The position numbers and the translations under genes are program-made. Below the pieces are notes generated by a model, which saw nothing but the letters and a program-made list of their open reading frames with translations, ran no database searches and had not been told where the DNA came from. 64,000 nt of DNA from Tubiluchus corallicola (lineage: Eukaryota; Priapulida; Priapulimorpha; Priapulimorphida; Tubiluchidae), in NCBI GenBank assembly GCA_030141605.1, contig JAQGDQ010000193.1:248001-312000 (forward strand), in the 5' to 3' direction. Below, piece after piece: positions 5,421-53,525 of this stretch. Position 1 is the stretch's first letter. The number at the start of each line of letters is the position of its first letter.

Positions 5421-8400
5421 CTGAAAATATACAGTTTATTATACACACGTTAAAATTTTTATTCACTTGCACTCCAGTCAGCATATTGCAAAATGATTTA
5501 CTTAAGCACTAACGATAATTTTACTTATTTTCCATGCCAAATTTGCTCAAGAATATGAAGACACATTTCGGAGATTACTAAATGTTAAAAAGCAACATGC
5601 AAGGACTGTTGATTTGGCATTGCGGTCACAAAAACATGATTAGTGTAGCTGTGACTTACTGTTTGCAGATAAAAAAAACATTAACTGATTTCTTACATTA
5701 ATGAAGTGAACACTTGGAAAACAAAATTATGTAAGGCTTGCCAATTAGCTGTAGATTTACAGTATTCACTTCGTTTTATTAATCCGCTCGGTAAAAAGCG
5801 TATACTGTTAGTTAGAGCAATGCAGTATGGCCAAAAGAGAGTAAAATTAATACAGCAAAAATAAATTATTCCACTGTAACTGGCATACCATTTCTGTTGG
5901 TTGGACTGGTGACGTTCTGTTGCTCGCTGCTGGGGTTTTTGAGTTCTCTGTCCTTTGTTTCTCTTTCAGCAATGAGTTGGCTCCGCTCTGCCGCTTCTTT
6001 TCTCCTGGCCTAGTGATGTAAAAAAATCTAGTTAAGTGACTGACGCAGCACTAATGTCAACACAGTACAAGCTCGTGGTTTATTTCTAATGTTAACAATT
6101 ACTAGGTGTGAGTACTTGTTCAAATAGCAAAGTAAATTGCAAAGTTGGCAAATGATTTATATAGCATCAGATAAAATACAGCCTCCTAGGTACAGCTTCC
6201 TACATTCAGTTAGCGACCAAATAAGACTTGTCAGCTTTGTTAACTTCTCCAGAAATGTGTCAGTTTTTGCAGAGTTTAGCGACTAATCCTTGCCAATTAT
6301 ACACAAAAAGCAAAACTTTTGCCTGGGCCTGAAAGGGATTACAAAGAAAACACATTTAACTGTGGTTACAACATTATATGCTAAGTGTAAGGATGACTTC
6401 CACACAACATGTAAAAGTAATTAATTAAATACAGCCATGAATTTGTATGCTACAACAATATCTAAAGAGTAAGTAAATGGTTATGGTGTGTGCTTGGCAG
6501 CAAAATTTAAGCAGCACTGTGTCTGATGTACAAACAGTGGGACGATTACCGCACAATTGCTTTTAAAATACTACTGCTGGTTCAATCTGAGAAAATCTTT
6601 CTTAGTGATAAGTTATCTTCTGATCTTGCCAGAAGTGATAAGTTATCTTGTCACTCAGGACAACTTAACTTACCACAAAGTTATTTTTAGGGATACATTA
6701 TCTTCTGATCTTCTGAATCAACCACCTTCAAAACTAGTACATCTTACTGCTGTTGACTCGCATTATTAAAGTATCATCATCAATTTTGTTAAAAAACCAA
6801 ATGTGGAGGGTAAATGGCACCTTTTGCCTTCAGTTAATCTAGCAAAATACACACTTTTTTCTACAATACGGAACAAGTATTTGCTTCAAATGTTTTGCAA
6901 ACCACATCTGGAACACAATAAGCAATATTCTCAGACAGTCTTAAAAATCCAGAAGTCTTAAAAATGAACTCCTATTTACAGTTCCTTTCAACATGAATTT
7001 TTAACTTAATCCACTATTATTTTAACTTACCCTTACGGTGTTTGGACATTCTTTTACAAAATGGCCGATCTTTCCACACAGTCGACAACCCCTGTCATTT
7101 GGTGGTTCACCGTCAGTCAATTTCCACGGGTCAAATAAGTAATTCTAAAACAAAAAGCATCGTTAATTGTAAAATTTAGTTGCAGTCTAATCACTTCTAT
7201 TAGAATTTTTATAAATGATGACAGTCACCTCACCCCAGCACCAAAATAAATAATTATAAAACATTCCAACATCTAAAATTGAATAATCTAAAATGGCCAA
7301 CTGTATAGCAAAATTCTGATTAACAGAACACCAACTACCAAACAACAGAATATTCAAAAAAATTTTCCCATACAACAGATTATCTAAAATGTCTCTTTTT
7401 TGTCATTGAATTTTCAATTTTTACACAAATTGTGATGCAGATTTATTAAAATTTGACCTATTAAGGCATGAAAACCAAAGTGCATTTCATCAAGTTCATA
7501 CTACAGCAAACAATCAGAGCATTTGTATAGCGAGTGATAAATCTGAAGAATTCTTAAAAAATGACAGTCACATGTCTGGCCATGCCAAAGTTGGCATTAG
7601 GTTGTATAATAAAAGCTCTGCAATAATCACATAAAATGATAGTAGTAATTGTAATAGGTTTCTGAGATAATTTTTACACACATTGCAAAAAACAAATATA
7701 ATTTTTTATAAACGAATGTCATACTGGGATAATAAAACAATAACTTCAAATAAGAGGGAATTTTTTATCATGTCACTTTTGCTGCTGTTTTTACCATACC
7801 TTCCATCCTTCTTCTTATCTCTAATCTTACTATTTTTTCCATTCCATCATGTCTACTAACCCCAACCATTCTTTCATTCACTCATTCGTGCCACCTTAAC
7901 AAGCCAAACTTTCAAGCTGTCATACAGTAACTCTTTTATTTGGTTAATTTGACTTCATCAATGTTTTTTGTAATCTGTACTATTTTTTTTCTAATCATAA
8001 TATATGTTGATGTATTGTATACATATTGCTGAAGTGAAATAAATTGATTTGAATTGATTTCAATTTTGGTTTAGTAGTTAAGCAAAAAACGACACGAAAA
8101 AATAATGGAATTCAAATGAATGAGAATGTTTCTCTTTTCTTAAAGCAAAACCAGATCCAATCTTAAACTCTAGGTCAAAACAATCTACTCTTTAAAATAT
8201 TGAAAGGACACATACTGTTTTTTCAAAAATGACTTATGTGAAAGAATAATTACCACCCAAACACAATTTTGCATTTGCGCCACTAGTCCTTTGCTGTTAC
8301 ATGCATTTCGCCATTCGCTAGTTAGACGGTCACTGGCACCCGCATTTCTTAAAGGCATTATACAAAAACAGGTGCTGTACCTCTCAGTTCAGATGTATTA

Positions 8401-11400
8401 GTTTGAGACGAACTGCACACGTTTGGCAGCTCATGTGTGAACACAGCGGTAAATTTGAAATTTGAATTTTTATCTTAAAACATACCTAGCTTTAGTACAA
8501 CACACTGAATATCTTACAGTAGCACTGAACTTCCATTTTCGCTTTCGCAAACACGTGCAACACGCTCGTAGAATATTTTTGCTACCGAAAATTATGTTAG
8601 TTTGTGATGCCATCAATAATTGGGCTCACCTGCCGTTAATTAAGTTTTAGTCATTTATTTATTTATTAGAAACGCTTTTGCAGTATTAACCGTGTTAAAA
8701 TGTACACTATTGGACTTCAAAATGGGGTAGTATACGGAAAATCATCCTGTCTTCTTTTAAATCTTGCTTGTCCGCTCATAATAGTGAGTCAAAGACTCCT
8801 CAGCCATATAGAACTTCAAGCTTGATTACTTACATAAAGTGCAATAACGTTGCGAATAGGAGTGGGAGTTCCAAAATGTTGTCGTGCCTTAATGAAAGCC
8901 TTCAATATGTAAGAGCTCACTGCAAATTAAATGAAATTATTAAAAACAATCCGACATAATTGTACTTCGATCGAAAGCATTCTGCCCGAAGAGACTGAAA
9001 AACCAGCTAAATTCACAATTTTTGTACATTTTTCACACTTGAATAGTAAAAGGCAACTTACTCTTTCTTGAAAGCCCAGCACCGAGATTATGATTCAGAT
9101 CAAAAGGATCTATAAAGAAAAAAACTTAAAATGCAGTCAGACAATAATGAAAAAAACATGTCTGAAAAACAAAAGGGAAATAAGACAACAAGAAACAGAA
9201 ACAAACATTCGCAATATCAGTAGCCATTTTCCATGTGCTTACAAAAAAAATGTTTTAACTAATTTCATTTTAGCATATATAATCGAGCATATAAAATATT
9301 AAAAAGAAAATGATTTAAAAAACTACTAACTAAAAAACATTGCATAGTCTCTACTAAAAAAATCTACTGCTGAGACTGCAAAGACAATCTTTAATCTTAT
9401 CAATTCTTGTTTAATGAACATAAGTCACATTGAAGATAAGTATATCTAACACAAATAGTTGGTCAGCACTGTGCAATTAACTAGTTAACTCGTTACTTTA
9501 GCTAGCAGCCACTTTCATAGTTAGTTTGGTTAAACGGCTAAGTTTAGCTAGTTAGTTTGCCTGACAAATTTTTAGCACATTACAGAAGAAACAAGAAAAG
9601 GCAGAAAAAGCCCAAGTTTTGCACTTATTGAAATTCTCTCTTCGTTACTTTAAGTAAGGAAACATTTTATTTCTATCTAAAAGTTCATAGAACACACACA
9701 CGCGCGCACGCACACGTTTACATGCACACCCACCCAACCACCCACACACACGCACGCACACATACATATGTATACTGCAAACACGAAATTGACATAGGAG
9801 ATAATTTACAGAAGTCTAAAGAGGCTACAAACAGAAAGTGCATTTAGTGAATGCAATTGGAAATAAACACAAAATTAACTGCACTTTAGAATATCTAACG
9901 TAATTTACCAATGACTTGGCAATCACAGCATACTGTAGCGCCACATGGCAAATTAATGAAATTACACTTCACAACCTGGTCCGGAATGCGAAGGATTACC
10001 TTCTTAGTTTATGAAGTCATACATAGTTTTTTCTGCATAAATACCTGGATATGATGTTTAGAATACATTTTACTGTTGTCATAAAACCCATTTGGTGAAT
10101 ATGTTATTTAGCATGTCATTTATTGTGGCCATAGAATCCATTTTATTGTAAAAATTTAGAATACGATGTTATTCTATTGTGACATTATATTACAAAAACT
10201 GGCCGAAACTTATTACATGAACAACAACGAGAACAAGACTGTCTTCACTACAAAACAAGTCTGTTTATAAGTTTACATTGAGAGTAAACCCAACAAGCTT
10301 CACAATACAAGGTGAACCTTATACCGTAAAATAAAACTTTCCACCACCTTTTACAATTACAGTCAAAACCTCGTTATGACACTAAATACGGCGCTATAGC
10401 GAAGTTGGCGATAAGGCGAGGTTCATTAATACTAAAGCCATTCTACTGTGTAACCTCTACTTTGTTGCCTAGTTAATTTTAATAAGTGATAAACAACAAA
10501 ATATTATTACACCTACAACAATGTGTGTTATATACTGTGTATTTTTTGCTGCATTAACAATGCAGGTGTAGTTCTACTGCAGTACCTTGCAAAACTTTTA
10601 GGTAACACAACATGGAGAAGAAATCTTGTGAAATGCTGGTTAATTAACCTATTGCTGATAAGAGAAATATGCACCCATAATAAGTTCTACCCACGCTCCC
10701 AACGCAATATTACTGGACAGTCAGACTACAATTAGTCACTGCTTATAACTTGACCTTCAGTCAAGCAGCTTTAACAGCCATTAAATTCACATCAGTTCAG
10801 TACTGAACCTCATGCAACTGTCCTAGTCTTAAAATGCATACTCTTTGCTCAAAACCTCAACATTCACTTTCATACAGTCGCTTGCTCAGAAACCGAAATC
10901 ATAATTTAAACACCGTATTTGTTTTCTTATCAGAGATAATTGTTTTTACAATGTTATAGCTTTTTTTACCAGTAATTGATTGTGCTTTATCATGGCTGGG
11001 TTTCTAACGGGGTTGATTTATTATGTAAAATTGACTTTTGGCAAAGCAAATACGTTGGCGGATGGCGACAGGCGAGGTTGGCAGTATTCCCTATAGTTAA
11101 TATAATATACTATGGAAATCAGAACAGGGAAAAAGCTGGCGTTAGGCAAGGCTAGCGTTATAAAGGAGGGGCGGTATAACGAGATCAGTTCTCACACAAA
11201 TATTTACTATCATCGATACCTTCTATAGCAATGGTTTTGTTGTTCCACAGTTTCTCAAAACGAGTTAAAGGCTTCAGCTGCCGAATGGAAACAACATTTT
11301 CTTTAAAGTTGAACCGCTCTGTATAAAAGCGCAACATTCCCAGCCATAAGTCACCGACGGATAACACGTTTGCATCCCAGTACGGCCATTTCTCACGCTA

Positions 11401-14400
11401 AAAATGGTAATAGTAATAAAAAATAACAAGTACAAAAAGTAATAATGTGGCTCTTATTAACTATATTCTCAAAAATGAAACCCAAATAAAATAATACAGT
11501 TCTGTCATTTATGCAATTATTCACAAAACACTTAATTTCTGCTTGTGCTTCTGAAAAAGGTTTTGTAAAAAATGTATAAATCGGTTTCGTGCTAATAAAA
11601 AGACTGTGTAATCATTTGGTAACTCATTATAGGACGTAGTTTTTGACATTTTATATTTATAACATTATGGCATCTGAGATTAAAAGATGACACTTTCGTT
11701 TGTATTATGCACTTAACAGCCTTGCCTACGCAATTAAATGTGCAACCAGGAAACGACAGTCTACTCCTTTTTATATAATTTTTTGGATCACAATATAAAA
11801 AACAAAGAGAAAAGCAAGACATTTAAATAAATAAATACATACATATACTAAAAATATTTATTGATTTTAATCCTAAATAAATCCTAACATAAAAAGCTTT
11901 AACTAGATTAGAACAAAAACTCTTTTAAATGAGTCATACCAGTTGATTGGTGTCATCAAAGAACCATGCATTCCAACCATCTACTATAACTTCAGGCATC
12001 TTTCCTTCATACAGCTACAACATAAAACTGTTTGATTGAACTGTGTAATTACAAAAAAAAATATTAAAAAAAATATTTCTTGTACTAAGTAACAAATCTG
12101 AACAACACAAATATACTGAATTTTGGACAATATTGCTTACAACGACATTTTGAAATCAGATAAGTGAAATCGTTTCCTGTGAAACCAATGATTCAGTTTT
12201 TAATAATTTCCAAATTGTCTGTTTCCGTTATCAATGACAAACACATTTAACCACTTTTAGTCCATCGATACGAAATAGTAATATTCGGGTTTGTTTACAC
12301 ACAGCATGAGCAACATTGATGTTGCAAGACAACAATCTCGAGTGCTAAGTCAAAACGTGAATGAATTACCTGACAATAATATAGACGTGCTTAACATGTC
12401 ATGTTACACACAGCATAATACAAACTGTTACCTCTTGTAAGACAGGTATGACTGGAGGTTGGCACTGCTGTAGGTAGTAGATCACTAGCAAAATGTATGC
12501 ATAAGATGACAAGCTACCCCTTGAAGCATCTCCCATATCACATGCCTAAATCAAGTTGCAGCAATATACATTACTTTAACAATAAGAATCATTACTTTAA
12601 CAATTATGTCGACAAATGGAAATATCATTAAACTGAAATTGAATTGTCACAGCGTGCATTTGGCTGCAAAGTTAAGCAGTGCTACATCTGATTAGCAAGT
12701 GGATGGATGATCAAACGGCAAAACTGTCTCTGGATGACTCTATCTAAAACACTCATACGGGTTCTTCTCTCACTAAGGGCACCTCCGCTGGTTCAGCATC
12801 TCATCTATCAGGTTATCATATATTTAAAAAATTTTGGTCTTGCGTGAAATTTAATTTTAATTCTGTCTTGTCAAAACCTTTCTATATATAGCAGAGAAAG
12901 GTAAAAGTAATTTATAAGCTATCACTATTTTTAAATTGCCATGGAATTAAATAACTACATACCCGAGTAATCCCACTTGACTCATGCACTTAGTTATTAA
13001 ACAATGAAATAACTACATACCCGGGTGATCCCACTTGACTCATTCACTTAGTTATTAAACAATGAAATAACTACATACCCGGGTGATCCCACTTGACTCA
13101 TTCACTTAGTTATTAAACAATGAAATAACTACATAACCGAGTAATCCCACTTGTTTCATTCACTTAGTTATTAAACAATGAAATAACTACATACCCGGGT
13201 AATCCCACTTGACTCATTCACTTAGTTATTAAACAATGAAATAACTACATAACCGAGTAATCCCACTTGACTCATTCACTTAGTTATTAAACAATGAAAT
13301 AACTACATACCCGGGTAATCCCACTTGACTCATTCACTTAGTTATTAAACAATGAAATAACTACATACCCGGGTGATCCCACTTGACTCATTCACTTAGT
13401 TATTAAACAATGAAATAACTACATACCCGGGTGATCCTACTTGACTCATGCACTTAGTTATTAAACAATGAAATAACTACATACCCGGGTAATCCCACTT
13501 GACTCATTCACTTAGTTATTAAACAATGAAATAACTACATACCCGGGTGATCCTACTTAACTCATGCACTTAGTTATTAAACAATTTTTGAACATTTTAA
13601 GTGCTTAGCTCGTATAAAAATGATTTTAACGATCAATTATGATCACCAAGTTTAATTGCTCTTTTACACTTGGATCCAAACTACATATTTACAGAACAGC
13701 AAGCAAATAAACATGAATTTATGTGATACGGTGCCTTCACGAGATTTCGGTTAACTTAGGCCTTAAAAATCATAGCAATCGAACAACGAAAGTGCTGAAG
13801 AAATTTGCATCCAACATTGAAGGCTGAGAAAAATAAATGCAAAGTTGACAAAAATACTCATTGTAAGCAAGTATCCTTACTTTGGCAAAAGCTTTCACCA
13901 CGTAGCCCAATACTTTGACTCTAATGTCCAAGTTCGAATACAAGCGTAGCATTCTTGTGTTGTGCTGTGCCTGCAAAATTCAGTAAACCAAATTACACTA
14001 AATAAGGAAGCTATGTAAAGCCCGTAGTACATACAGCACATTGTACAAAAGTAACTGTGCACAGTAAATTCAATATGTAATTGCATATTGTGTACAGTGC
14101 ACATATTGCTTATGAGGAGTCATACTGTGCTTTTCTTCAGCTGGGCCTCAGAGTTAAATCTATTAAAATGCAAAATAATGCTTGACATGAAGAATGTGAT
14201 AATTTTTCCTTGAATTTACAAATTCTGAAAATGCTGTCAAAAAGTGCCTTTACAATTTTATCTAACACACGTGTTATCACTCTTAATATTGTGACAAAAA
14301 AAATTAACTGTGCGTAGTCTGTGCATAGAGTGGTATACTAGCAGGCTCTTGCTTAGGAAAAAGATGAACTAGGTAAGGTTCAAGCTAGTTGTTAAAACTT

Positions 14401-17400
14401 TCACTATTACAATAGCTTGGGGTGCGAGAAGTTGTCAAGTGTACACAAACGCATTATCTGGTACAGTTAACCTTCGACCTTTTACGATCACCAGCAACCA
14501 TTCAGGAATGGTTTGTGGTTCTGCAGGTTGCACCTGCTCAACAGGCTGCCGCTCCCCATTTCTCCTTTCATTACAACAATGTAAAAAACATATAAGACAA
14601 AAGATAAAAGATATATAACATAGTTAAGTACGTAATAATTGTTACCAATTATTAATGCAAGACTGCACTTACCAAGAGATTGTACAGGCTAATGTCACCT
14701 TCTAAATTTGACTTTCGAAACTTGAACTTCACAATAGGCACTTTGGCTGTTGAGATGGCAGTGATGTTATACAAAGATTTGTTACCTTTCAAGTGTTTCG
14801 CTAAATCTTCAATTATTTCGGCATAGTTCAGTTTCTAAACGAAACATGAATTATAAGTTTTGGAGTATTATAATATTATATAAAATTATATTTTTACATA
14901 CAAACTTGAGCTGATTTTAACAGAATATTATAGTAAACCCACAATTACTTCATTAAAGGAACAAACGCATCAAGTTTGTCTGCGTATTAAGCTATGCTAT
15001 CAACAATCAATTCAAAAATTGAATAAAATAACCAAAAAATAATAATTTACTTATTTTTTTATTAATTTTTCCAGTCTACTAGTAATATTGTTTTCATAAT
15101 TTAAAGAATTATAAACGTGAATATAAACAAAATATAAATTTATTAATAAAATGCTCCAGAGCTTACTATCACTATAGGCAACTATAGTGTAATTTCAAAT
15201 TACGTAGCCATTTAGAAAACTAAATCCAATCAAAATCGGTTGACAATAAATATACTGTATAAATTTTACATGCTGCTTAAATGAATACAGATTTGCTATA
15301 TATTTTTGAGTATCAGTATAGATACATTTGAGACCTCATGGGGATGTCACTCAGCAGCTGCTAAGAATCTAAAATATAAAAACTTAATATTAATCACGGA
15401 TTGTAGCTGAATGAGTACTTTTGGTTCATTCAACTATATTTGTTAGTAGTTTCTAATAATTTAAAAGATAGAATATACTCACTTCGCCAGTGTCATCGCC
15501 TAATGTCATACAGATGTCCATGTCACTGTGGAGAAAACCAAATCCATTCACGGATGATCCAAACAGCGTCAACTTCGCATCTAAAAAGTGATAGTGCATT
15601 TGATTACAGTAACACGAAATTACCAGGTTTTATTTATGTCATAACAAACAAAACATGCAGGAGAAAGAGCTTTGAAAATTGCTTGAAGATACAAATTTTG
15701 ATGTGAATTTATAACTAATGACAAATGATAAATATGTGATCGTGGGCATATTAAATTTCTATGACTAGTTAAAGCCATTTCACCTTCTATATATGTTGTT
15801 TTCATTCAAAATGGCACTCAAGTTCATCAGCTACAGAAACGCGCCATTTTGTGATTTCAGATAGATTGTTGAACGTAGATGTAAAAAAAGGCAGCAGAAC
15901 AAAACAAGTATTTTGGTCAGTTAATCTTGCAGGTTTAAGCTTGATAGGTAATATGACAGCTCACAAGTAGTGTGTATAGCGTACACAGTGTGCAATTGTT
16001 ACATACTGTTCTTACTGTGCACACTTACTTTTGTGCAATGTGCTCAATGTACTGTGTGTTTCACATATCTTCCTGTACTATACATATTCTCCCGCTCTTA
16101 TACAATTTAGTGATTTTTGCTTTACTGAATTTTGCAGGCACAGTACAACACAGAATGCTAAGCTTGTATTTGAATTTAGACATTCCAGTCAAAGCATTGG
16201 GCTACATGGTGAAAGCTTTTGACAAAGTAAGAATAGTTGCTTACAATTCAAATACCAAAAAAATCAGAAAACTTTTCTCTCTCTAGAACTTGTATGTGCT
16301 AGTTAAGCATTAAGAGCATGTACCTTTATTTGCTTTCCGTATGTATGATTCCAGCTCCTGCAGGCTTTTAATTCGTTCTTTAACTTCAGAGGACGACGGG
16401 CGGTAGTATTCTGAAACAAAGTACGCATGTTAGTTAAGGCAAACATATGCAAGTATGCATTTCACCACCTCAAAGTTCTTGTTTTCTTCATTAAACTTAT
16501 TAGCCTTACCAACAATAGTTATCAATCTGTGAATATGATATCGTGAATTTTTCAAATATACTAAAACATTTGCAGATTTCCCTTTCCAAACTGGCTAAAA
16601 TCTGGTAAATATGATAACCAATGATGATACGAAATCTAAATCTTACCATAGATGTCGTAACAGACTGCCGTCAAGTCTTTCCTGTAGGACTGCGGAAGTG
16701 GAGGCAATGGCTCCAGTTCTGGCAAGACATCATCAGGACAGTCCTGGAGTTGAAAAAAAACACCAATCAAAAATATAGCAAACTGATTCCGAATGAACTT
16801 AATATCAATTAGTTCTACAATTTATACTTAACCTGCTGAATTTTACATAAATCAGAGTTAAATTTGTAATGTGCCGGCAAATTTTTAAAGCACAATTGCA
16901 TTAATGTAATCTGCCAAATCTCAGTGTAAACACAGAGCTTCGGTTACAACGCTGAACTAAATGTCAACTTTTTTCTTTTTTCCTTTTCAAAGAAATGAGC
17001 GACCAAGTTTGCAGAACACTATAAAATCAGTTGCAAATTTGCTACGACCAGTTTACTAGACTATCAAGAAATTCACTTTTCAAGTTTTCAAATCACTCAA
17101 ACTGATTAAAAATTGTTGTTGAAAACAATACCAAACTATACATGGCATGATATGTGGTACATCATACCTGCTTCAGATGACCAAGTTTCTGGCACATGGC
17201 ACACACAATATCAGGTTCCTACAATAAAATGAAATAACAGTCAAGTAAAATTGCACCGTCATCAGTTTCAAACCTTTCAAAGTCTAGGTATCAAGTACAC
17301 TTTAAAATGGCATTTTAAAATCACCTTGTAGTGCATACAACAAGCACAGAATAATTAGCAGCTATTTTTGAAGAACAACAATATTGAGTCAAATAAAATA

Positions 17401-20400
17401 CGACTAAATGAATATGTGCGTGTGTTCAAACTTGGTTTCACTTGCTTAATTCAGCCATCAGAACTTCACATACCATATGTGCTTTATCGATAATTTTAAA
17501 CTTAATTAAAATTTTGTTTCATACAATTTATTAAGTTGAATAAATTATGCACGACAGCAAGATGTTAGTTTGTGTTTAATTTCAATTTTGCATCAGTGGT
17601 GCATGGCAAAAAACACTCAAGCTTGATTTTACATATTGCATTGTTACATATTACGTATTTACATATTACATATTTACATATTACATACATAAGTATTGTC
17701 CAATTATGGAAGCTTGGTATACATCTATTTAGTATAAATAAAACTTGGTATAACGTACACAGCTATCAGCTTCACATATGAAGGTACTGAGTGGCTAAAA
17801 ATATATCAGAATTTCATTGGCGTTTGTAAAATTATAACACCTGTGTTTGCTGCCCCGAAATCTTGGCAATTTCAGATAAACAAAGCCAAAGTTAAACACA
17901 AAGCAGATTCAATTCAGCTTAACAGAATAACTGAGTCTACTCGAACTATGTATGCTTAATATTAGAAGCTAATTAATCCTAACAACTTGAAAATAAGAAA
18001 CGTAAAAAATATATTGCTGCAGTTTTATTTAAAATGACATACGGCTGCAAGTAGTGCAATTACACACTTGCATTGTTTTTTCAAGTCGTCCCTAGATGGC
18101 AGACAAAAATTGCTCAGTCACCATAGCAACGCCAACTTTAGCAAGCAATGCGCATTCTGGCAGTGTGTTGTTCGAAGCTACAGCACGACAATGTACATAG
18201 CGCCTGCGTGTCACAAACACCATGACAACCTATTGTTCCAGCTTGGCTGTGGCTTGCTGTTGAGTGAAATTTTACACATTTTTTTTACAAATATCATTAG
18301 CGCACAAGTTTATGTCCTACATTTGCATAAATAATATATTCCGGTTGGCATGCCATAAAAAATGCCTTATTTACTGAACAAAACAGTATAAAACACTTAA
18401 TAAGTTTACTGAAAATGCATAAAACCCAAAAATGATCTTGACATAAAAATGTGATCATTACAAAGTTTAAGAACCCCCTCTTGATAGATCCGTTGGCTGT
18501 TTTTACCTGCAAATTCTCATTGTAACAAAATTAACAAAGTGTCACAAACACCATGGTAATCTATTGTTCCAGCTAGGCTGTGGCTTGCTCCTGAGTGAAA
18601 TTTCACGCATTTTTTTTACAAATGTCATTAGCGTACAAAAAGATGATTGTGTAAAAAGTGAAATTTCTCAATGGCTAGTAAGTTAATCAGGCACAACAAT
18701 GAAACTTGTAATTGCACTATTTGCAATCTCATGAAATTGTTCAAAACTCAACATCACAGCCACAAACCCGGATTCAACTTTCATATTGTAGCTTCATTGT
18801 GTTACATTTTGGAAAGTAATTTTGACAATAATTGATGAAATTTCATACCTGGCCGTCTGTAAGTATGTCTGCATCAAACACAAATGTCAGGTCAGTGACT
18901 GTTAAGTTATCAACCAGTTCTTTCCTGTAAATCCTGTCGACACGATTCCTGCTTGCCTTTACAGGTGCAACAACTTTTTCCGACTTATCACCTCTAGTGG
19001 CAATGTCCATGATGGTCACAAGACCTTTAAAGGTGCTCTTGCCAGAGTCGCTCTTCTGCAGCTTTCTGACAGACACCAACGAGTCAACTTCATATTTATT
19101 GATTCCAACTTCAAAGGGACGGATCAGCGTAGCAAAGTCCCGCACAGTGCACACTTCAAAGTAGCTAAATTCTCGTACGAGACAAACAAAGGAGTTGAGC
19201 AGTGGCAACGCATCGTCGCCCGGATTTTGAAGTTCTTCCCGAAGGACTAACACAGCTAAGGAAACATACTTGGCCAGCTCAAGCAAGTTGATTTTCTTAC
19301 ACATCCATACACGGCCATCCCCCTTATGGAAATACGAAGAGAGTTTAACACGATCCACCGGCGTGAGACGAGCAACAAATTCTAGCAGATGCATGGCCAG
19401 CTCAATAGGAATGTGATATGTTTCGTCAAACTCCTCCTTCTGAACTTCGGCAAAATAAGAAGAGTGTTGAAAATGCTTGTCCATTTCTAACTTGTCCTGT
19501 AAAGCTTCAGGAGTTTGGAAACCAATCCGGGGCAGAGAAATAGAATTAGCTATGGGTTCACTCAGAGGTGTAACAGTTAAAACGAACTGATCATGAACAT
19601 CGTCATACTGAAACACGCCAAATGTTCGCTTTCTGAAAGACAGCACTGTTTCAACATCCAATGGTGATATGTTCATGGACATATCCGAGTCGAAATAAAA
19701 TTTCCAGTAGCAAAGATAGTCCATGAGCTTCACAACGTTGTGACCTTGAGAAGTTGACTCGGCCACAAATGAACGTCTGATGAGCTTTTCTTGAGGATTG
19801 TTCCACCTTGTGCGCGGTTCTATACGTATTATCAGCAAACAAATTGTGAGCAAACGAGCTACCTCGGACTTGTGCTCACGTTTTAACCGGCGGCGAAACC
19901 GGTCGAAATACACGCTGAGAGTGCTGTGATCGATGAAACACGTAAATGAGGATAACCACTGCAGCATGTAACGTGCCAGGTGGGACGGCACATGCAACGT
20001 AGTGCCGTCATGCTGCGGCACACTAGCAAACATAAGCGTGGTTCCAAACAACTGTTCCTGCCGCAAGTCACTGAGAAAATTCCGTTTACTCGTATACTGA
20101 ATGGAGCTAGTTTTCTTTGTCCAAGTCATTTCCTTGGACATCAGCACCACTGCTTCGCTTCCAGTTGGAACTTTTACAATATGATTATTACTTTTCGTAG
20201 GTCTGTCCTGTACCGTCTGTTCCCGACTGTTATCGACCAATTCAGAATCTAATCCATCGGATTTTGTCTCTTCATTTTCTTTATAAAAATCATCAAAAAG
20301 CTCCACTGGGAATGGAGGAATGTCAGTGCCAGATGAATCAACCACCTCTGACTTATTCATTTTAACACTGCTTGTGAGATCAGTTGCATCTTCTAACACT

Positions 20401-23400
20401 AAAGGTTGTGCGTTCGTATTATCATCAACACTATCTAATTCCACATCATCCGCTTGATCAGTATCAACAGTGCTGTCTACTAGAAGGCTGAGATCAAAAT
20501 CAGGGATACGGGATGACGAACTGGCGCTCTGACATTCGTACAACTCATTGATTTTACCTTCTTCAACTACAGAATTGTCCACGAAGCTCGAATGCAGTAC
20601 GTCAACATCCTCACCACCAAAGAATGTTACGGGAGTGCCACTTGCAACAAGCTCAGGAGCTTCCTCACTCATATTTCTCTCGTAACTGTCCATTTTTGCT
20701 GCAGCATCAAATTCGTTTAATGTAGCAGGTGCAGACACACTATGAAAATCGTTACTTGTTTCATCAAGTCCAACGTCAGGTAACTCGACGGTCTCAGGCA
20801 TTTCCTGCTTATAGTCAGTAATACCAAACTGAGTATCCAGTGTATTTGCTTGCTTGCAAGAGCTCTCATTAAAATTTGGACTAGTGCTGTAGAATTTGTC
20901 TAGAGCACATACTATGTTATCTTTGTCTGACAGTAGCACGTGTTGTTCACTGAGTTTTTTATCAGCCTCAAAGTCATCTGAAAGACACGGGCTAGCAGCT
21001 GTACATGTCTGCTGTTTTTCAACATTACTATCGAGATCTAGCAATTTGGTAGTAAATGCATGATCAAGAGAATAACTACTATGTACATCCTTGCCTACAC
21101 TTTCATGTTTTTCACAAGCTGTATTGCTACTTGTGCTTTGTGTACCATCTGTGTATTCGCTACCATAATGACCATACCACACATTGTCGGAGAAAAAGTC
21201 AATATGTTCTTTTGAAGAAGGATTAGTTAAAAAGTTTCTCCGACTGTCCTGAACTTGACACAAAAAACTGTCAAAACTGAAGCTTCTGCTTTGTGACTGA
21301 TCACTGATATGTTTAACAGGTGAGCCAGCTTCTAGTTTGGCACTGCCACAAACGTCCGACACAGCGATAATAGCCTGGTCATCCAAAGACAAATCAGGAT
21401 TGCGTTCAATGGAGTCGGACAATCGTGTGCTTGTGCGAGGCAAAGGCAGAGCAGCAGAACCTTTTTGTAAGCTAATTCCATTGTCTTCAGCCTTCTTTAA
21501 TCTGGTTTCACTACTTTTCACAACACTTCCGTTATCTACAAGAACCAATCACATAAATCACCAAACTTTTATTTCTATACAGTTATTTTAACAGTCTTTA
21601 CAAGCTCCAATCCAGCAATCAACAGTAAGACATTGGTAATGTAGATGACGGATGTGAAATGCGAATCTAGTTTACTATTTAACTCCTTCAGAACCGTAAG
21701 CATTTGCTGCATTTTGCATGGGTTCATCAAAAACTGCTCTCACTAAGCAACAATTACATTATATTTGATAATTTTTTCTACTCCTTACACAATGGGCTTT
21801 CATGCAAAATTATATGCATTTGCTTACTTTAGATATACTAAAAATCAATTTTTGACGAAAAAACTGAACAAAGCTTTCAACATCAGTAGTGTTTGCACCG
21901 TAAAAATGTACAGTATTACTTGTGTGAAATCAGCTAATGAGGAAAATTTCAACTATCTAGACAAAACAATCTGATACACTTTGGCCTCAAGTTTACCTGT
22001 CTTTAAGGAGATATTCCTGTTTAAAGATGAGGCAACCTTAATGTTCTTGGCAATTGGGTTGGTTTTTCCCAGAACTCTGCACAGCAGACAGTTCTCTTGG
22101 GCTGTAGCAAGCAGGTGATCAGTAAAGTAGTGTATACAATCAAGCAAGCGTATACCAGACTAAGTTAATTGTTTGGTTAAGTTGGAGGGCCTGAAAGAGA
22201 CGTGTTCTTAATTTTATCCAACAAAATCACATACAAATGCTTAAACAAATAGTGTGGTCGGATAGCCGAGTTTCTCCTGAAAAAAACAGTACGTAATTTG
22301 TAATCATTTAGTCATGTTTGTGCTCATACTTTAGCAGGAGTCGTAGGTCTTATAAGACTTATTTTGAGTGGTGCGGTCCTGAAGGAGTCAAAAGTTAATC
22401 CTCTTGGATAAGATTAGCAGAGAACTGCTAATTACTACCTAAGGTAACTAGCTGCTTGGATGCAGTTTTCCTAATGGTCAATCATTCATTTACTAACAGA
22501 GCTCGGTGGAGCTAAACTTCCGTAACCAACTATGACCACTCTTTGCTAAAATGCCATGTTACTTAATAAACAATCTATAACATATCTGCAGACCCTGCAA
22601 TTAAGTTTATCAACTACTAATAAAATCTGCAAATATCAGTTGTCTAAAACAACTTTTATGTGCACAAAAAGCTTACAAAACAATTCAATCAGAACACTGC
22701 AAAGTTGCAAATCGATCACACGCATTTAAAAAAATTACCAGAACTCTGCATCTTGTGCAAGTCTTTACGTAAATCAGTTAACAAGCTATCACGTTGTACT
22801 TCGCTTTCAATGCGGGTGAACAAGGGTCCAGTCCTTGTCTGTGGCACAGCGAAATATTTGTAAGCGGAGCGAAACCGATCGACTATGTACTCGTGCACTT
22901 TTTGTGAGCTGATGGTTCGAGAAAGTTTCCGTTTCCGATAACTTGGATCTGAAAAAAAAACAGGATACAAACAAACTGAAAGCAAAAGGAAAGATGCGAT
23001 GCACACACTATACAAGCAAGTAAAATGGTTATATACAGCCTTTTCTTTCAAGTCAATAATGCTGGCAATCAAAAGAAAATGCTGGGTTTGTTCAAGTTGG
23101 ATTAATAATTTAAGTTCAATATTCAATTGACAATGGTGTGAAACACCAAGTTTTTCTGACACATGGTTGGACGGCCACACATGTACAGTCTACATTGAGT
23201 ATAAGAGAAAGCTGACATTCTGGTTACCATAACAACTTGGTGTTGTCAATAGGTTTTTATTCCAAAACAAAACCGCACAATTACGTTCTACAATTGTCCA
23301 CGTTGACGACTGAATTACCCATGGAATGCATTAAAAAATGTAATTCTTTCACAGAAAACAACCTTCTATTGACAGCCGCTTCTGAGACCACTTCTTGTCT

Positions 23401-26400
23401 TCTAGCCGGATGTGCTGCAAATGCCGGATGCAGATAACATATTCTGTAATTGTGTACTCGACTGCATAGAACTTAAGCATCTTGACCCACAATTCTCCAG
23501 ATGACATTGTATTTTTTGACTTCCAACTCTGCAACTGAAAATACGTTTCTATGATCAACAATAATCGTTTTCTAAAACTTTTTATCAGACAAACAATCAA
23601 CTCGTGCACTACCGCTGTAGCACATACTTACCAAAACACAAAAACATGGACTGGTTTTAAGCATACAAGGGATGCCACACCTTTATATACTTTACATTTT
23701 GTAAACTACCAAGGCAAAATAATTATATGAACACTTTTTCATCTCTCTCTACTCATAACAACATTTGCATGAGTACTAAACGACACTTCATCCAGCTGCT
23801 TAAAATGAACTACACCAATTCACATATAAACGTTTACCAATTCCTCATTCCAAAGAGTTGAATCGTCCTCCTCTACAAGATCATTATCATTTGCTCCTGA
23901 AGTGACGTCCATTTCCAGAGATTCATCGAGAGCTTCGTCATCATCATCTACAGTTGAATCTGCTACAGACTGATCAGCTTCCGCCTCACTTTCACTTTCA
24001 TTACGTTGCCTGTCCTTGTTTGCCAGCTTCCGTTCTTTGTTGGCATTGTGACTCTCAGCCCTTAGCTGCAAAGTCAATCGTTTTTAAAGAAAAAATAATG
24101 ATTTACCAAACTGTGTCAATATCCACAAGACAAAGTGGTGTTTAAAAAACATAAAGTTCTTAGGTAAATACTTTAAATCCACACATTTAAATTTTGAAGT
24201 TTCAGCAAGCTGCTCGCAAGTTTGTAACAACCATTTGTGCTCACACATCGCTCGTTCCAGTACTATAATCTAGCAGTATTCTTTGCTTTCAAATGTCAGA
24301 TGATACAAATTTAACATTATATTGTTTACAGTTATTTTCCCCACATCCCAAGTGTATTAAATTACAATTATTACAATAGCCATCTTACCTCATGCAATAC
24401 AGGTAAAACAGGTGGTTGGACTTGTTGTAGGAAGTAGATGACCATCAAAGTGAAAGCATGTGGAGGTAAAGTGCCACGGTGTTGCTTGTCTATGCCACAA
24501 AGCTAAACAATGAAAGTATTTGAATCTAGAGTTGTGAGAAAAATTGAAAGACTTTGATTTCTTACACAATGCAGCGGCAATAAGTTGCATAAACAAGTTT
24601 TGGAAAATGTCTACTATTAGAAGCTGATTTTCATAACTTTCTGACTAAATTTCAGAATGGCATTATAATGAGCACATAATAATGGTTAACCATCCTTGGC
24701 TAGAATTAGGGTATCTACTTTTCTAAGAGAAATAACAATGATCCCTGAATTTACAGAAATGCAAAGGCTTTGAGCTAACAAAATAACTTCAAATTTAAGT
24801 CACGTTTGTGCATCACCAACTTGAAATGCACAAAAAAACACTTGTTACAATTTAACAAACAATCCGATCAGAAGTTGATTCAAAGGTTATATTTAAAAGT
24901 GCATTAGCTAGGTCTGTCTGTTGTCAGGTACAGGACATCTTTATCATTTGGTGTTCAGTTGATAATGGGAATTTAGTTGTCAATGATTTTTAGGATTTAA
25001 GCTGGAAGTCGATTAGGCATACAATCTTGTCATCTGTCACAGAGATATGCAAGTTAGTGATGTAGGTAAGTGAATTTCGTTAAATGCCATAAAAAGAAAT
25101 AGTTAGTAAGTTATAGTAGCACATAATCAGCAACTATGAAAAAATTTATATTAAGTTTACTGATTAAGTGAAGATCTTTGAAAAGCCAATGCAAAATTTA
25201 ATCCTTGAAATAGTTGAAAAGTGCTGTCATTCGTGGTATGTACTTTTATAAAGTACTTTTTTGGTTAAATATGACAATCGTGATAGCTATCTATTTCTTT
25301 CAGGAGCTGCCGTCCTAATGGGCCTCATCAACTGAATAGACTTGCCCCATTAATTTGAAAGTGCTGCTCTCACACAGTGCAGCTCTATCAAACTTACAGG
25401 TTAGCAGCACAAGTCTATTCAGCTTATGAGGCCAGTTGAGGTAAAAGCTCCCGAAAGAAAAAATACTCTATTTTGGGACTGTAAAGAACATTCAACATTT
25501 TTGTTCACCTTAAAGATGACAAGGCTCAGGCTTTCATACCTTAAGTATCACGAGAACTACTTTCATCACGTTATTTCATGGTACATGTAATTATTACTAC
25601 TGTATTTTCTTTTACGTACCTTTGCCCAATAGCGGAATGCAATGCCAAGTGTACGGCACCTAGAGTCAAGCATACAATATGTTCTTAACAGATTACAGGT
25701 TTTCCATGAAAGTTCTGTGCTAGCTGTAATTGAGCAAGGCAACATAGTTGTTTTGTCTGTGAATGCTACTGCTGGCACCTTCAGTGAAAATTTTCTCTCC
25801 AAATCATGAAACTGATCTTGAAAATGCAAAAATCACAGTGTAAACATTCATTTATATTGAATTAATTGAAAATGGTAACAAATTGGAAAAGAATTTTAAG
25901 ATACACCCTTCAAATCTCCTTAACTGAAACATTTACAGCTTGTAAAAACTCCTTCACTGTGCTCCACTCTTTACAGAATGCTGAAACAGTTACAAAAATC
26001 GTTTTTTGTAAGGAAGTACGTGTCAAATTTTGCAAAACGAAGGTCGCTAAATTGAAGAAAATCACAACTGAGGAAAGCTGTGAACCTCATACAAATCTGG
26101 TGATAGGTCTACCACAGAGGTTGTCTTGCAATTTTTAAATTTATAAGTCAGCATTCTGAAATGACCAATGACTGTTACTATGCTATTTTACAAAACAAAT
26201 TCATTACTAAAAATACCTTTATGTTCTTGTAAACAATTAGCAGTTTTTATCAAAAACTCTGGAACGTTTTTGTCGCACGAATGAACAAGGTCGATGTTAA
26301 CATCACTGGATTTCAGTCCAAATCCACTAAATGTGGAACCGTACAGTCTACAAATCCCACCTACAAGTAATTATAAAGGAATATGTCTGAAAAACCTGCA

Positions 26401-29400
26401 ACCATTGATATCTATAATCACATGTCTGAAAGACTACGTATGGTATTATGACAGAACAAAAACATTGTGTTATAACAGGTTTTTTTATTTCTTACTGAGT
26501 ATGCTACAAGCCATCATCCAATATTGCTGTTTCAGAACACAACTCTGACATAGAAGTTTTGGCCATAATCGAACGCACAACCATCCTACCTCAAAGACGT
26601 TTATATAACCAGTAACAGTATGGCATTGTAGAACAATCTGGTAGCAAGTTTTTTAACAGTAACCACTAACTTAACTAGTCAGGCCTAGTTGTTTAGCTTT
26701 GTTGCCCATTACACACCGTGACCACTTGGTTATCCACTCGTCCTCGTATACCAATTACACTCACCTGGTACGTCGGCTGCCATTATCCTATTTAGTCTTG
26801 TCACAATGTCTTCCCTGCGTTTATACTCTTCTGTACTCAGGCCATGTTCACGTGCAATTTGTTCGAGGAACTGAGTTAAAGCAACCAGATGAGCTTGACA
26901 AGGAACAGGCAGATCACGAAGAAAACGCTCCTCCTTTCTCAACTATCAGTTCAGAAAGATGAGCAAATGAATGAACAAGTTTCACAACAGACAAATAGAT
27001 TATTAAGGATAGAATTTCTCATTACCGAATCTGGTTTTCGAATCTAAAAACTGGCAAGACAAATGATTAACAGAACCTTGACATAATTTGCACGTCTCGT
27101 AGATGATTAATTAAAGGCACAAAACTTACCTTCATCAAGCGCTGGTGTCTTTGCTCAGAGATATGCTTACGAGAGATGGACACAGTATCACAGTGGTACT
27201 CACAAAGACGGCAGTAATACCTGGCTTTTGGAAACCGCAATGATTTCTAGAACAGCAATTATATAAGAGGGCTTATAGTAATAGCATAGAACCTTATGCA
27301 TTACACACGTATATAGATATATTCAGAATAGTGACATAGTTTATTGAATTCGCGTGCAAATTTAGAATTCATATAAGCAAGTGCGTAGATATCAAAACGA
27401 GAACGCAAACGAAACGTATAACTGCAATGTTTGGCTTTACTTGCTTAGTTCAACACCTTTTTCAGTGGAAATAGTTCTTCTTTTTCTAGTTCGGCTAAGA
27501 CTTCACGACTGGGTTTGCTCTCATCCAGAACGTGTTCAGGTGTGGTTGTCAACTCTGGAACTAAAAAACAACATATTATGAAATCACACTACAAATTACA
27601 AAAATGGACTAGTTAGCAGTATAATAACAACATTTAAGTAAAGCAATTTAATTTCTATGCAAAGAACAAAAACATTTACAGCTTCAATGTAATTTCTATG
27701 CAAACAACAAAACATCTGTTAGTCAGTCAGGTATGGGACCCTTACTATCTCAAGGACATCCAAGCACAAGCTGTGGACATGATCATAGGTCTTGAAGGAC
27801 TCTCATACTCGTAAAAACTGCAAAAATTAGACCTGGAGAGACTTTCTGCAAGAAGACGTTAGGGGTGACTTATTGAAGTGTTTAAGATTCTTAAGAGTCC
27901 TACTGACATCAATGCAAACCCAGTTTTTATACTCAGTAGAAGCATTACATGTGGGCATAGTGTCAAATTGTTCAAGCATGGGGTTAATACTGAAAGTATC
28001 GGCATAGTTTTTTCACATGTCGAAGTGATACTGTGGAACTCATTACCAGTATCATTAGCGAGTGCAGATAATGTTAATAGTTTCAAATAAACTTGATTCA
28101 GAATTTCGTGCGAGAAACCTCCAGTTTTTAATACCAGTTTGGTATATTAAGAAAAGAGTAAACCAACAACAAATAATTGCACACGGGTGTTCTTTGGCTA
28201 GCTACTTAGTCGATGAGAGATTGGTGCAAGATATGGAAATAAGGGTTTACTCACTTCAATTTAATTTCTATGCGAACAACAAGACATCTTCCAAGATAAA
28301 AAATCAAAAATTTTCATTTGAATAATGCGGAAAATTACTAATAGAATAAGTAGTTTCATATCTCTGGCAAGAAGCCTGATTATCTATTGTTCGACCAAAC
28401 TTTGATAACATTAAGGTACCAAACATTAATCTGTGCATTAAACAGGATAGTGTTTTAAACTTCAAATGACAAAAAATGTTATAAGTTTATGAATTTGATA
28501 CCTATTGTTTCATTGCACGTGCTCTAAAATGAAATGCACTTGCCTACTTAATTCTACGGTGTACAATATTTGTATAAACACTTCACTACATTTAGATAGA
28601 AAATAAGGATAGAAATAACAGTATAAATAGTGACACGTGGTAAATATAAACAGTTGTTCCAGCCAGATTATGCTCATCAGCTGCTTATAAATGTTTGAGG
28701 GAAGAAACACTCCATCCTGAGAACAAAAACCTGCTGCATCAAATTCTGCATAAGGCAGCACATACAGAACACGCACAAGATTAGATAAAAAAACACACGC
28801 AATGCGTACACGGCGAACAGCTGTGCGACGCATATTTGAAGCACACAAAATTTAATGCAGCTACTAGCCAGTAAGTATATATTAAAAGTACCTTGACTGT
28901 TGCTAGTTTCCTTTAGGCGCTTATTATTTTTATTTGCACGACGTTTGGAGCCGGTTTCAGAATTCTTTGTTTTTTGTTCTACCTTGATACTTTTTGAAGC
29001 AGCATCAGCCTGTTCAGGCACATCACGCTCTACAACGTTAGGTGAAACGTCCGTAAACTGCTGCTTCACAGGTAATGATGATTTGTTTGCACTTTTGCTA
29101 TCACTGTCTGCCACCCGCGGTAGCGGCGACGGCAAATTCGTATCCGCTTGAGTGAAATTGACTAGTTTAGGTGCAGTGTTTTCAATACCATTCTGCGGCA
29201 CCCGACTTGTCTTTGATTTCCTTGGCTCCCGGCGTTTGCTCTTTACTTGAGCTACATTTTCGACTATCACAGTGTCCAATGCATTGTCCGATTTTTTATC
29301 AACAACCCCTGTTGAGCTAGAACTGCTTTCCCTACTTGTTTTTCTGCTACTCTTTTGCTGCTTGGCATCAGGATATGATCTCTCGCTTGAAGAGGTCGAA

Positions 29401-33150: not shown

Positions 33151-36100
33151 ATGCTACCATCCTCTGGATATTTCAAAACAATTCCTTGTCCATTCTACAA
33201 GAATGGTTTGTGTGAAAGGCCGTACTGTCATTTCAAACATGTAAAGCCGGAGAAACCGTCAGGTAAGGTGCAAACGGATCTTGAGTAATCCTACTTCTGG
33301 GATCCCGAACTCTAGCCATTTTTCCAGCTCTTGGATTTGAACTGCAGTCTTGGGAATATTTATAGATTTGTTAATTCTATACCCATTGGTGATCTATTAG
33401 ATTATCGGGGACTGGTTGTTCAAGGATAAATAATCACCGAGAACAGTTTTCTGATTACACATAACTTCATGAGCTACTACTGATTAGTGTCACTACAGTG
33501 ACACTTTGAAATTTTATTCCATTTAGACAATGACACAGTTACCCATATTCTTTGCTTAGAAAGTGCTGGTGCGAAAAAAGAAGCAAAACAATTTAGGGTT
33601 TGGCTATGTATTTCGTGAATAGGTTTGGTTTGTAATCACTCTAACTCATCTGATATAAAATCTGGAATAAATATTTAAAGGAAAACCGGACGATTGTGTA
33701 AACATTAGCTCAGAATAAACAATGCTCTAAAATATTGAAAACTACAATAGCTGTTTCTAAATCGAAGGTTTGATTAAATAATAATTGCCTCGGATAGTCA
33801 AATTTCGGTAAACTATCAAAGCTTAGTAGGTTCAGTGAATCTACTAAGATTGGCAATGGCGCCTTTTTGTCACATTCGCGTGGCCGACAAATAGTAGGTG
33901 GTACCGGGATAACCAAAATCATGAACTGCAGTATTAGTTTCTGATATCATATGACGTAGAGCCCATTTTCGTGACATCACGCATTTAAGCAGTACTGTAA
34001 CACTTACGCAAATGTACTTGACATGCAAGAGAAGATGCCTGTCATTGCACAAACTGTGGTTAGTTTCTGACATAAACAATAGCTGTGTTCGGTTGTCATT
34101 AATTAACTTTCTAAGCTAATTATTCAAATACAAGAAACAATCGCTAACTCTTATAGGAAAGAAAATGTATATTTTGGACAGTAAATTAAAATGAGATTTA
34201 TTGTCCGGTTTTCCTTTAACATCACAATTGTTAATTAATGTTTTGGCAAATTCATTAACTATTCTTTTTGTTTTTAGAATCCAGTCTTCTGTCCGAAGTA
34301 AACGTGTCAAAGCCGTCTGGTTTATCATCTAGTTTAGTACTGGATTCTGGCAAAGATGATTTACTTGGAATGGTGACCAATGCACTCCATCAAATGCAGC
34401 AAGTGGTTCTGAGAGAAACAGAAAAGAGGTAGTAACAAACAATTTGTGTAGTTTAACATGGCTTCTCTGGTGTTTCTTAGTCATTGAATTATGTTTAGGT
34501 CCTCTTCAGCTTACAAGTCTAGAAGCTTTATGCTGTCATGCAGCATTCGTCGTCAGTCCACCATTCACGATTTGAGTTTAAGCCATTTATACTTGAAACA
34601 CTTTGAATAGCTTTCGTATTTTTGGTATGGGCTTCTTTTGAGACAAGATGGTGGTAAAGGTCAAATGTCATTCTGAGGGCACATCCAGAACCTCAACAGC
34701 TGGTGCATGTAGTGGGTTGATGTGTGCCAACTCACTATAAGAAATTAGTGTGGCTTGGCACCCACTGACAACCCATATATAAAAGAATTTTGCCCTCTTT
34801 TCCCTGAGATGGAGTTAAATAGAGAGGATCCAGAATGGTGGGTATAGCATGAATCTGTCACTTATTGACAATCCAACATTGATTTTATTTTTTCCAGGGC
34901 AGATACAGGATTCAAAGAATATTGGAAAAAAGTATAGTGATATAAATGCAGCTTTTGTCCTGCAAAATGTCAATGTACATGTTAGGTGATGAACTGATAG
35001 ATGACAATTTTTGGGATATGGCTTGCAATGACCTTCCTCCCAGGGGAAGGGAGTATCCAGGATGGTGGGTATAGTGGAGTATGTGTTAGCTCAAACACGG
35101 AAGTGCATTCACCTATTGACAACACAACTATTAAAAAAATATTTTATTTGCTCCCTAATCCCCAGGGAGGGAGGATCCAGGATTTCAACATTTGTAAATA
35201 TAGTGTTGTCTTGCTGATGGATGAGAACTTTTTAGTAATGCGTTATACATTAGCTGTCGGATAGAAAATTCGAGACAGAAAACTCTATAGTCTGAACATG
35301 GCATAACAGCTGGCTTATCTAGCATATCATTTCTAAAATTTGTTCATATTTTCAGACACGGCATACCTGCATATGTACCTTAGTTGATGCTAGTACCACA
35401 TTTTAAAAGTTTGCAAAATAGTTTGAGTCTTACAATTAAGATTACAGCTTTAACTTACAATCATTGTTAAATGTTAAATGAAAGGTTTACTTACAGGAAG
35501 AGCGAATATCAGTCTACTTCTGCCACTGGAAATGCTTCTTACAAGCCAACTCCGCTTCCTGACAGTCGCAGTCATGTGGCACATCGACAACATCACGTGC
35601 GATCAGAAATGGCTAAGAAGTCTTCAATTCCCGCCTACAATCCCACGCCGATTTCACGTCTAAAGCGCACTAGCTCAGCAAGAGAAAAATGTGATTGGAG
35701 AAAGCCAGTTAAGATAACAGCACAATCACCTGCAAGAGCAGAAAAAATAGTTGAAAAATATTCGCCACAAAGGACACACAATTTAGGCAGCAGATCACAC
35801 GCAAAGTATGTGCCAAGTAGTGTCGTTCATGCAAATGCTTTCGCAAGCAATTCGAGCAGTCTATCACTGCCTAAGCCAATCTGTGCCAAGTCCAGGGAAC
35901 AACTAAACAAGGCAAGTGATCAAAGTCAAGTTAATGCTGATGTGGATGAGTACGATCCTGCAGCTGAGATCGACAATAAACAGCTCGAATCTGTGCCAAA
36001 GTACTGTGCTACCAAGAAGCTTGTCAGTGAACTGCCAGAACAAATGGCACCTAAAGTTAAAAAGGAGCCCACAGAGGATGATTTTTCTGAATGGGACGAA

Positions 36101-52776: not shown

Positions 52777-52910
52777 GAGCGAGAGCGTAGTCTACCAGTA
52801 ACTACTTTTGTTTAATGGTGCGTAGTATGTGAGTCGTTTCACTGTCAGTTATTTAATTTTCGCAGATCACGTTTAAAGAAAGCTAAAATTGTTTGACAGT
52901 ATCTTAAACG

Positions 52911-53525
52911 ATGTCGTTATCACCGTTTCGCAGAGTGCCACTCATGGCTCGTGGTTACTGGCGTTGTCACAGACCAAGCACGTGGTTGCAATGCCGAAAA
53001 GCCTCGTTACCTTCTCGTTGGCCACGGTCGCCAAGTGAATTCGTCAGAGAGTTTGAACAAGATTTCCAGCGTATGCAAAATGAAATGAAACGATTTGAAC
53101 GAGAGCTAATAGGAAGCAGTTTTTTCGATCGATGGCTCCCTCGTACGCGTCAACAAGCTGTTGAACCCTCATTCTTTGAAAATGAATTAGCCCAGCATGA
53201 TGTTGTTGAAGCAGATGGAAAGAAAACTTTACAACTTCATTTTGACACTCGTAATTTTAAACCAGAAGAAATAAAAGTAAAAGCTTGTGGAAGTAAACTG
53301 AAAGTTCATGCTAAACATGAAGAAAAATCGGATACAGGAGCTGTTTACAGGGAGTTTTCTCGGGAGTACACACTTCCAGAAGGAATTGATTTAAATGCAA
53401 TGAAATCTGTTATTTCAGCTGACGGTGTTTTGAAGATTGAAGCACCTTATGTTGCACTTGAACCACCGAAGGAAACAGAAATACCAATAGAACGAGAATC
53501 GAAACCTGAAGAAGGAAAAGAATAA
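52911..53525 (+). CDS. Small heat-shock protein (alpha-crystallin/Hsp20 family), 204 residues
   Basis: ATP-independent chaperone that holds unfolded proteins. The gene has a single exon, unlike its neighbours, which is usual for rapidly induced heat-shock genes. The alpha-crystallin domain spans about residues 97-180, with DVVEADGKKTLQLHFDTRNF, VYREFSREYTLPEGID and the family's hallmark end ADGVLKIEAP. The IPI motif at 191-193 is the C-terminal IXI anchor used in oligomer assembly. The N-terminal region contains FFDRWLPR. The first 42 residues contain no Asp or Glu and many Arg, so a mitochondrial targeting peptide is possible. I chose the first ATG; a second Met at residue 12 is possible. 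Confidence 0.93.
   Translation: MSLSPFRRVPLMARGYWRCHRPSTWLQCRKASLPSRWPRSPSEFVREFEQDFQRMQNEMKRFERELIGSSFFDRWLPRTRQQAVEPSFFENELAQHDVVEADGKKTLQLHFDTRNFKPEEIKVKACGSKLKVHAKHEEKSDTGAVYREFSREYTLPEGIDLNAMKSVISADGVLKIEAPYVALEPPKETEIPIERESKPEEGKE

Follow-up and report, generated by a model that had tools for sequence, protein, structure and literature searches.

A TUT4/7-type gene and its surroundings

The window, a 64,000-nt stretch of DNA from the priapulid Tubiluchus corallicola, carries on its minus strand a gene that, judged from its sequence, is clearly a TUT4/7-type uridylyltransferase. A query made from its joined exons, leaving out the insert described below, aligns to full-length human TUT4 (8ost, 1644 residues) in six ordered stretches with an E value of 3.6e-146, and to human TUT7 (8oef, 1495 residues) with 3.7e-128. 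Together with the Pfam domains, this six-stretch alignment to both human proteins bears out the identity given to the gene in the original prediction. The N-terminal half (LIM) contains a predicted pseudo-nucleotidyltransferase domain, NTD1, in minus-strand frames at 25569–26942, where Pfam TUTase scores over its cut-off in frames 26733–26942 and 26191–26370, followed by PAP-associated domain 1 at 23364–23498 (Pfam PAP_assoc). The second half contains the palm of the catalytic NTD2, in frames at 14655–15960 with a Pfam MTPAP-like_central match to a piece of it in 14655–14834, and PAP-associated domain 2 at 11221–11361 (PAP_assoc). All of these align to human TUT4/7, and the NTD2 segments SDMDICMT and EGDISLYN have aligned counterparts in the human catalytic module, whose triad of three acidic residues is named in an excerpt of PMC6488673. 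Two CCHC zinc knuckles are present. The first part of knuckle 1, between the halves, lies in the exon at 17168–17218, aligned to human knuckle 1, with the rest in an exon starting at 16743; knuckle 2, after the catalytic half, lies with its FD..LTDG preamble in the frame at 7025–7144, recognized by the knuckle pattern and by alignment to human TUT4/7. A minus-strand pattern search below 30000, which would miss an intron-split knuckle like knuckle 1, finds two clean zinc knuckles. A putative N-terminal C2H2 zinc finger, CRLCEYHCDTVSISRKHISEQRH, is recognized by pattern only in the frame at 27070–27246, using the form C-x2-C-xn-H-x5-H from the same excerpt (PMC6488673).

Several other features lie in and around the gene. 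A 96-nt inverted repeat (13860–13955 and 16152–16247, 89% complementary) is a partial plus-strand copy of the catalytic-half exon NTRMLRLYSNLDIRVKVLGYVVKAFAKV, about 2.2 kb away. A TUT gene intron holds a tandem array with a 58-nt period at 13000–13695, although the scan began at 13000 and the array may start earlier. By eye only, the plus strand carries a long repetitive frame (35471–38875), a REXO1-like exonuclease exon (48781–49191), a small heat-shock protein (52908–53522) and a NUP205-like exon (60999–61229), and the minus strand a LINE-type reverse-transcriptase fragment (44483–45187).

Searches of the host genome place the gene in context. PAP_assoc has four matches, two of them within the TUT4/7 gene, and the other two loci match an HMM of TUT4/7 fingers only distantly. 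Since these two loci match only distantly and the insert is found once, the gene is taken as the only TUT4/7 gene in the genome, though such searches can miss exons. A let-7 match of 62.5 bits exceeds its cut-off of 53.5 and lies on a contig other than that of a LIN28-like locus. The latter (L006, minus strand) holds in one place the double knuckle and cold-shock exons, at 132–179 and 2504–2545, the double knuckle about 2.3 kb on from the cold-shock domain; the joined exons have lin-28 homolog A as their best PDB match (E 3.8e-18). Given the let-7 match and the LIN28-like exons, the classical LIN28/let-7 pathway is probably present in this host.

Two related units in one large exon

Between the LIM and zinc knuckle 1, an acidic linker, two units of unfamiliar sequence and the knuckle-1 anchor share a single exon of 2,687 nt (18849–21535, minus strand), identified as an open frame of 901 codons with phase-compatible acceptor and donor. 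The upstream exon ends at 22739 (AGTTCTG|GTAATT) and carries one codon base over into 21535, where the acceptor reads TTGTAG|AT. The donor at 18849, CAG|GTATGA, joins in phase 0 to TTGTAG|GAACCTGATATTGTG, the knuckle-1 exon at 17218–17168, and from there to the exon at 16743. These exon limits are a splice-site model from the sequence, with consistent phases and no additional exon required; the lower bound given in the original prediction, 18849, is the end of this exon. The intron directly after it contains a 100-nt direct repeat (18208–18307 and 18539–18638, 90% identical, 331 nt apart).

The exon divides into four parts. The linker (20076–21535, 486 residues) is acidic and low in hydrophobic residues, with 18% D+E, a net charge of -0.10 per residue and 26% ILVMFYW. 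Unit 1 (19491–20075, 195 residues, best conserved at about 19818–20066) and unit 2 (18912–19490, 193 residues, best conserved at about 19233–19490), both delimited by self-alignment, form an insert of 388 residues between the linker and the anchor. The latter, DNLTVTDLTFVFDADILTDGQ, is a 21-residue element at 18849–18911, common to human TUT4/7, that directly precedes zinc knuckle 1.

The tandem duplication announced in the original prediction is visible in the sequence. First, a Smith-Waterman comparison of the two units (BLOSUM62) scores 82; shuffled sequences average 30.7 (sd 4.75), and none of 5000 shuffles reaches the score of the pair; in nine other matrix and gap settings, 0 of 2000 shuffles does so in each. 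Second, because the split point came from the original prediction, the whole exon was also scanned against itself with no preset split. This unbiased scan scores 79, which 5 of 8000 shuffles within 20-residue blocks reach (p about 6e-4; 9e-4 from a Gumbel fit), and under three earlier shuffle schemes 0 of 400 reach it in each (0 of 1200, the highest being 76 in one scheme). The self-alignment proposed as a check is thus significant either way. Third, the units are paired at a spacing of 195 residues, in an alignment that begins near the start of both and continues in order to a C-terminal motif, with most of the signal in the first ~85 residues. In the BLOSUM62 Smith-Waterman alignment, the first three of the four segment pairings originally proposed keep their register; the fourth, the C-terminal pair LDVETVLSFRKR/YEVDSLVSVRKL, is aligned in 5 of 10 matrix and gap settings, in a further pairwise test and in MAFFT.

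It could still be argued that the likeness reflects chance or composition, and that the region is disordered or a single stretch of unrelated sequence. When only the two units are compared, BLASTP gives an E value of 0.001, a modest support, and the few unbiased shuffles that reach the score point the same way. In a six-frame search of the 343-Mb genome, unit 1 as query returns five rows, in which a chance frame with an internal stop (E 0.07) follows unit 1 itself and outranks unit 2 (E 0.21), ahead of two weaker frames. Unit 2 as query, however, returns two rows at E up to 10, itself and then unit 1 (E 0.71), so that its sole other match in the genome is its neighbor. Set beside the pair test, in which no shuffle reached the score, and the collinearity from the unit starts to the C-terminal motif, this leaves chance a highly improbable explanation. 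We conclude that two homologous extra units very probably exist. Their identity is 27% (MAFFT), which means that the duplication either is old or has evolved fast. The idea that the acidic linker holds a third, degenerate unit was considered and rejected, the linker being absent from the list of a two-unit HMM even at E up to 1000; on other minus-strand frames, the exon itself aside, this HMM scores at best 7.9 bits (E 0.09).

Known families, human linkers and fold

The description of the units as an unknown domain agrees with the libraries searched. Pfam yields no family at E up to 10 when the exon is the query, and none for the insert, either unit or their pieces; no NCBIfam model matches. 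Among PDB sequences, a single-sequence search returns six rows and no convincing match, the best being yeast RSC1 (E 0.16) and the next V-ATPase subunit E chains (about 0.4); a two-unit profile returns no row up to E 10. Among the best-scored candidates in the 343-Mb genome there is no convincing second copy of the insert, which is found once. A pattern search matches 3 times in viral contigs and 88 times in prokaryote genomes; tblastn confirms none of these matches, and for an animal protein none would be expected. No such insert is described in the titles and abstract openings of open-licence papers among the matches listed. The insert is real, unnamed in the libraries searched and modestly surprising.

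The human proteins were likewise said to have no equivalent between acidic linker and knuckle 1, and comparison with their linkers, checked letter for letter against the PDB chains, upholds this. From the LIM to the first knuckle cysteine there are 204 residues in human TUT4 and 333 in TUT7, against 895 exon residues here; with segments of that length, neither has room for a 388-residue insert. Against either unit the human linkers give z values of -0.6 to 1.4, with no detectable equivalent, whereas against the anchor they give 12.4–14.9 (TUT4) and 6.2–6.5 (TUT7), and the human counterpart of DNLTVTDLTFVFDADILTDGQ in the alignment is DNLPTQELYYVFDKFILTSGK, immediately ahead of knuckle 1. The FD..LTDG preamble precedes both knuckles (18849–18911 and 7025–7144) in the window and in human TUT4/7. 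The similarity of the two preambles is compatible with an ancient duplication of the complete NTD-PAP-knuckle module, an event that would have given rise to TUT4/7 and of which the preambles may be a trace; the extra material would then sit in module 1, after its PAP domain and ahead of its knuckle preamble.

Composition sets the units apart from the window linker and from both human linkers: ILVMFYW make up 38% of unit 1 and 39% of unit 2, against 26% of the window linker and 20–21% of the human ones. From this composition we infer that the units are probably folded; their state would be mostly helical. AlphaFold gives no usable fold, either for one sequence of 411 residues (pLDDT 34.8) or for unit 2 aligned with unit 1 (two sequences, 40.2), and its low-confidence helices cover the same conserved segments in both units. 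Amphipathic periodicity is a trend only, the mean moment of the insert being reached by 16 of 300 shuffles and that of the linker by 66 of 300. With these low-pLDDT models as queries, Foldseek lists 136 matches up to E 10 and none at 0.001 (best 0.72), and VIA gives best Z scores of 5.7 (rmsd 7.3, 77 aligned) and 5.8 (rmsd 3.1, 46 aligned). The VIA matches, mostly ribosomal protein chains and unrelated helices with Z below the tool's meaningful level, are read as noise.

One suggestion in the original prediction was a derived PAP-associated helical fold, by which the units would have degenerated from copies of the helical half of a TUT module (PAP-associated/fingers) and been kept as scaffold. 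Inspection by eye likens VLSFRK/VSVRK to the VISIR of the fingers, the best spot in hhalign is this VISIR-like motif (10 columns, E 0.38), and the order of helices is roughly alike in the low-pLDDT models. The hhalign probability, however, is 0.16%, with E values of 0.77 and 0.48 for the single units. An HMM of six fingers gives no score for unit 1 and -1.6 for unit 2, a value that shuffles of three kinds equal or exceed in 288, 341 and 346 of 500 cases. In pairwise comparison with the six fingers and three other TUT parts, z is at most 1.2; in the same test, the control of fingers from the catalytic half (CM) against those of the LIM gives 20–35, and unit 1 against unit 2 about 11. With hhalign, HMM shuffles and pairwise z all failing to support it, the PAP-associated fold was dropped as a lead, and descent of the units from fingers is improbable. 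A palm remnant was also considered, since unit 1 contains LFGTT, reminiscent of LFGSS in the palm; it was rejected, z being negative for each unit against each of the two palms.

Possible role of the insert and comparison with known systems

An old tandem duplication within one exon very probably produced the pair of homologous units in the LIM-CM linker, placed between the acidic stretch and the knuckle-1 anchor. The likeliest role of the insert, itself no more than possible, is that of a docking and spacer module acting in cis between the Lin28-interacting half and the catalytic half, setting their distance and angle and offering a binding face to a protein partner. In human TUT7 with bound pre-let-7, the link between LIM and CM is resolved together with knuckle 1, which contacts the stem of this RNA, as stated in an excerpt of PMC11402785. 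The insert abuts the knuckle-1 element; control of distance and angle is proposed because its site is where the human TUT7 linker and knuckle 1 hold the pre-miRNA stem. A docking or spacer function is possible, and the whole statement, that of a TUT4/7 from a let-7-bearing animal whose duplicated linker units serve as such a module in cis, is offered tentatively.

Next in rank after docking and spacing comes direct RNA binding, by which the units would be an extra substrate-recognition platform beside zinc knuckle 1. Unit 1 has a basic stretch, RFRRRLKREHK, which might conceivably meet RNA or else the preceding acidic stretch, and the neighboring knuckle contacts the pre-let-7 stem in human TUT7 (excerpt of PMC11402785). 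The basic stretch is not shared, however, its counterpart in unit 2 being HKGDGRVWMCKK; each unit is close to neutral in net charge, and no RNA-binding family in Pfam matches. Direct RNA binding is accordingly rather unlikely as the main role.

The history of the units may be read in two ways. The region may be a general, ancestral feature of invertebrate TUT4 that was lost or shortened in vertebrates, a reading compatible with either function. An excerpt of PMC5509036 reports TUT4 in most animal phyla, with vertebrates as the derived case that has TUT7, and the low identity between the units suits a duplication that is old or fast-evolving; that no Pfam family has been built on them is a little surprising for a widespread domain. 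The balance here is even. Alternatively, the units may form a new tandem-duplicated domain family confined to the TUT4 linker in a single invertebrate lineage, a second platform for substrates or partners that would alter the control of LIN28/let-7 or mRNA uridylation, which is doubtful. The LIM-CM linker is called flexible in the human structural papers, as far as their excerpts go. If a folded, duplicated module does occupy it, the linker is a site of domain gain, and the module would allow a direct test of LIM-CM spacing and knuckle-1 position in mono- versus oligo-uridylation.

Three known systems offer comparison. The Cid1-type PAP-associated/fingers domain is helix-rich, as the units seem to be, and shares by eye the VISIR-like motif; the units differ in having no profile or pairwise similarity to it above shuffles. 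TUTF7_u4 models a region of vertebrate TUT7 that is situated in the linker and said to be unstructured. It too is an extra region gained by a TUT, TUT7 having acquired it in vertebrates (excerpt of PMC5509036), so that domain gain by a TUT is already known in kind; the exon differs in matching neither TUTF7_u4 nor any other Pfam model at E up to 10. Human TUT4 (ZCCHC11) and TUT7 (ZCCHC6) share with the window gene the order of pseudo-NTD1, PAP1, acidic linker, FD..LT.G anchor and knuckle 1, then catalytic NTD2, PAP2, preamble and knuckle 2. In this comparison the two units belong to the Tubiluchus gene only, and the anchor directly after them is common to both sides.
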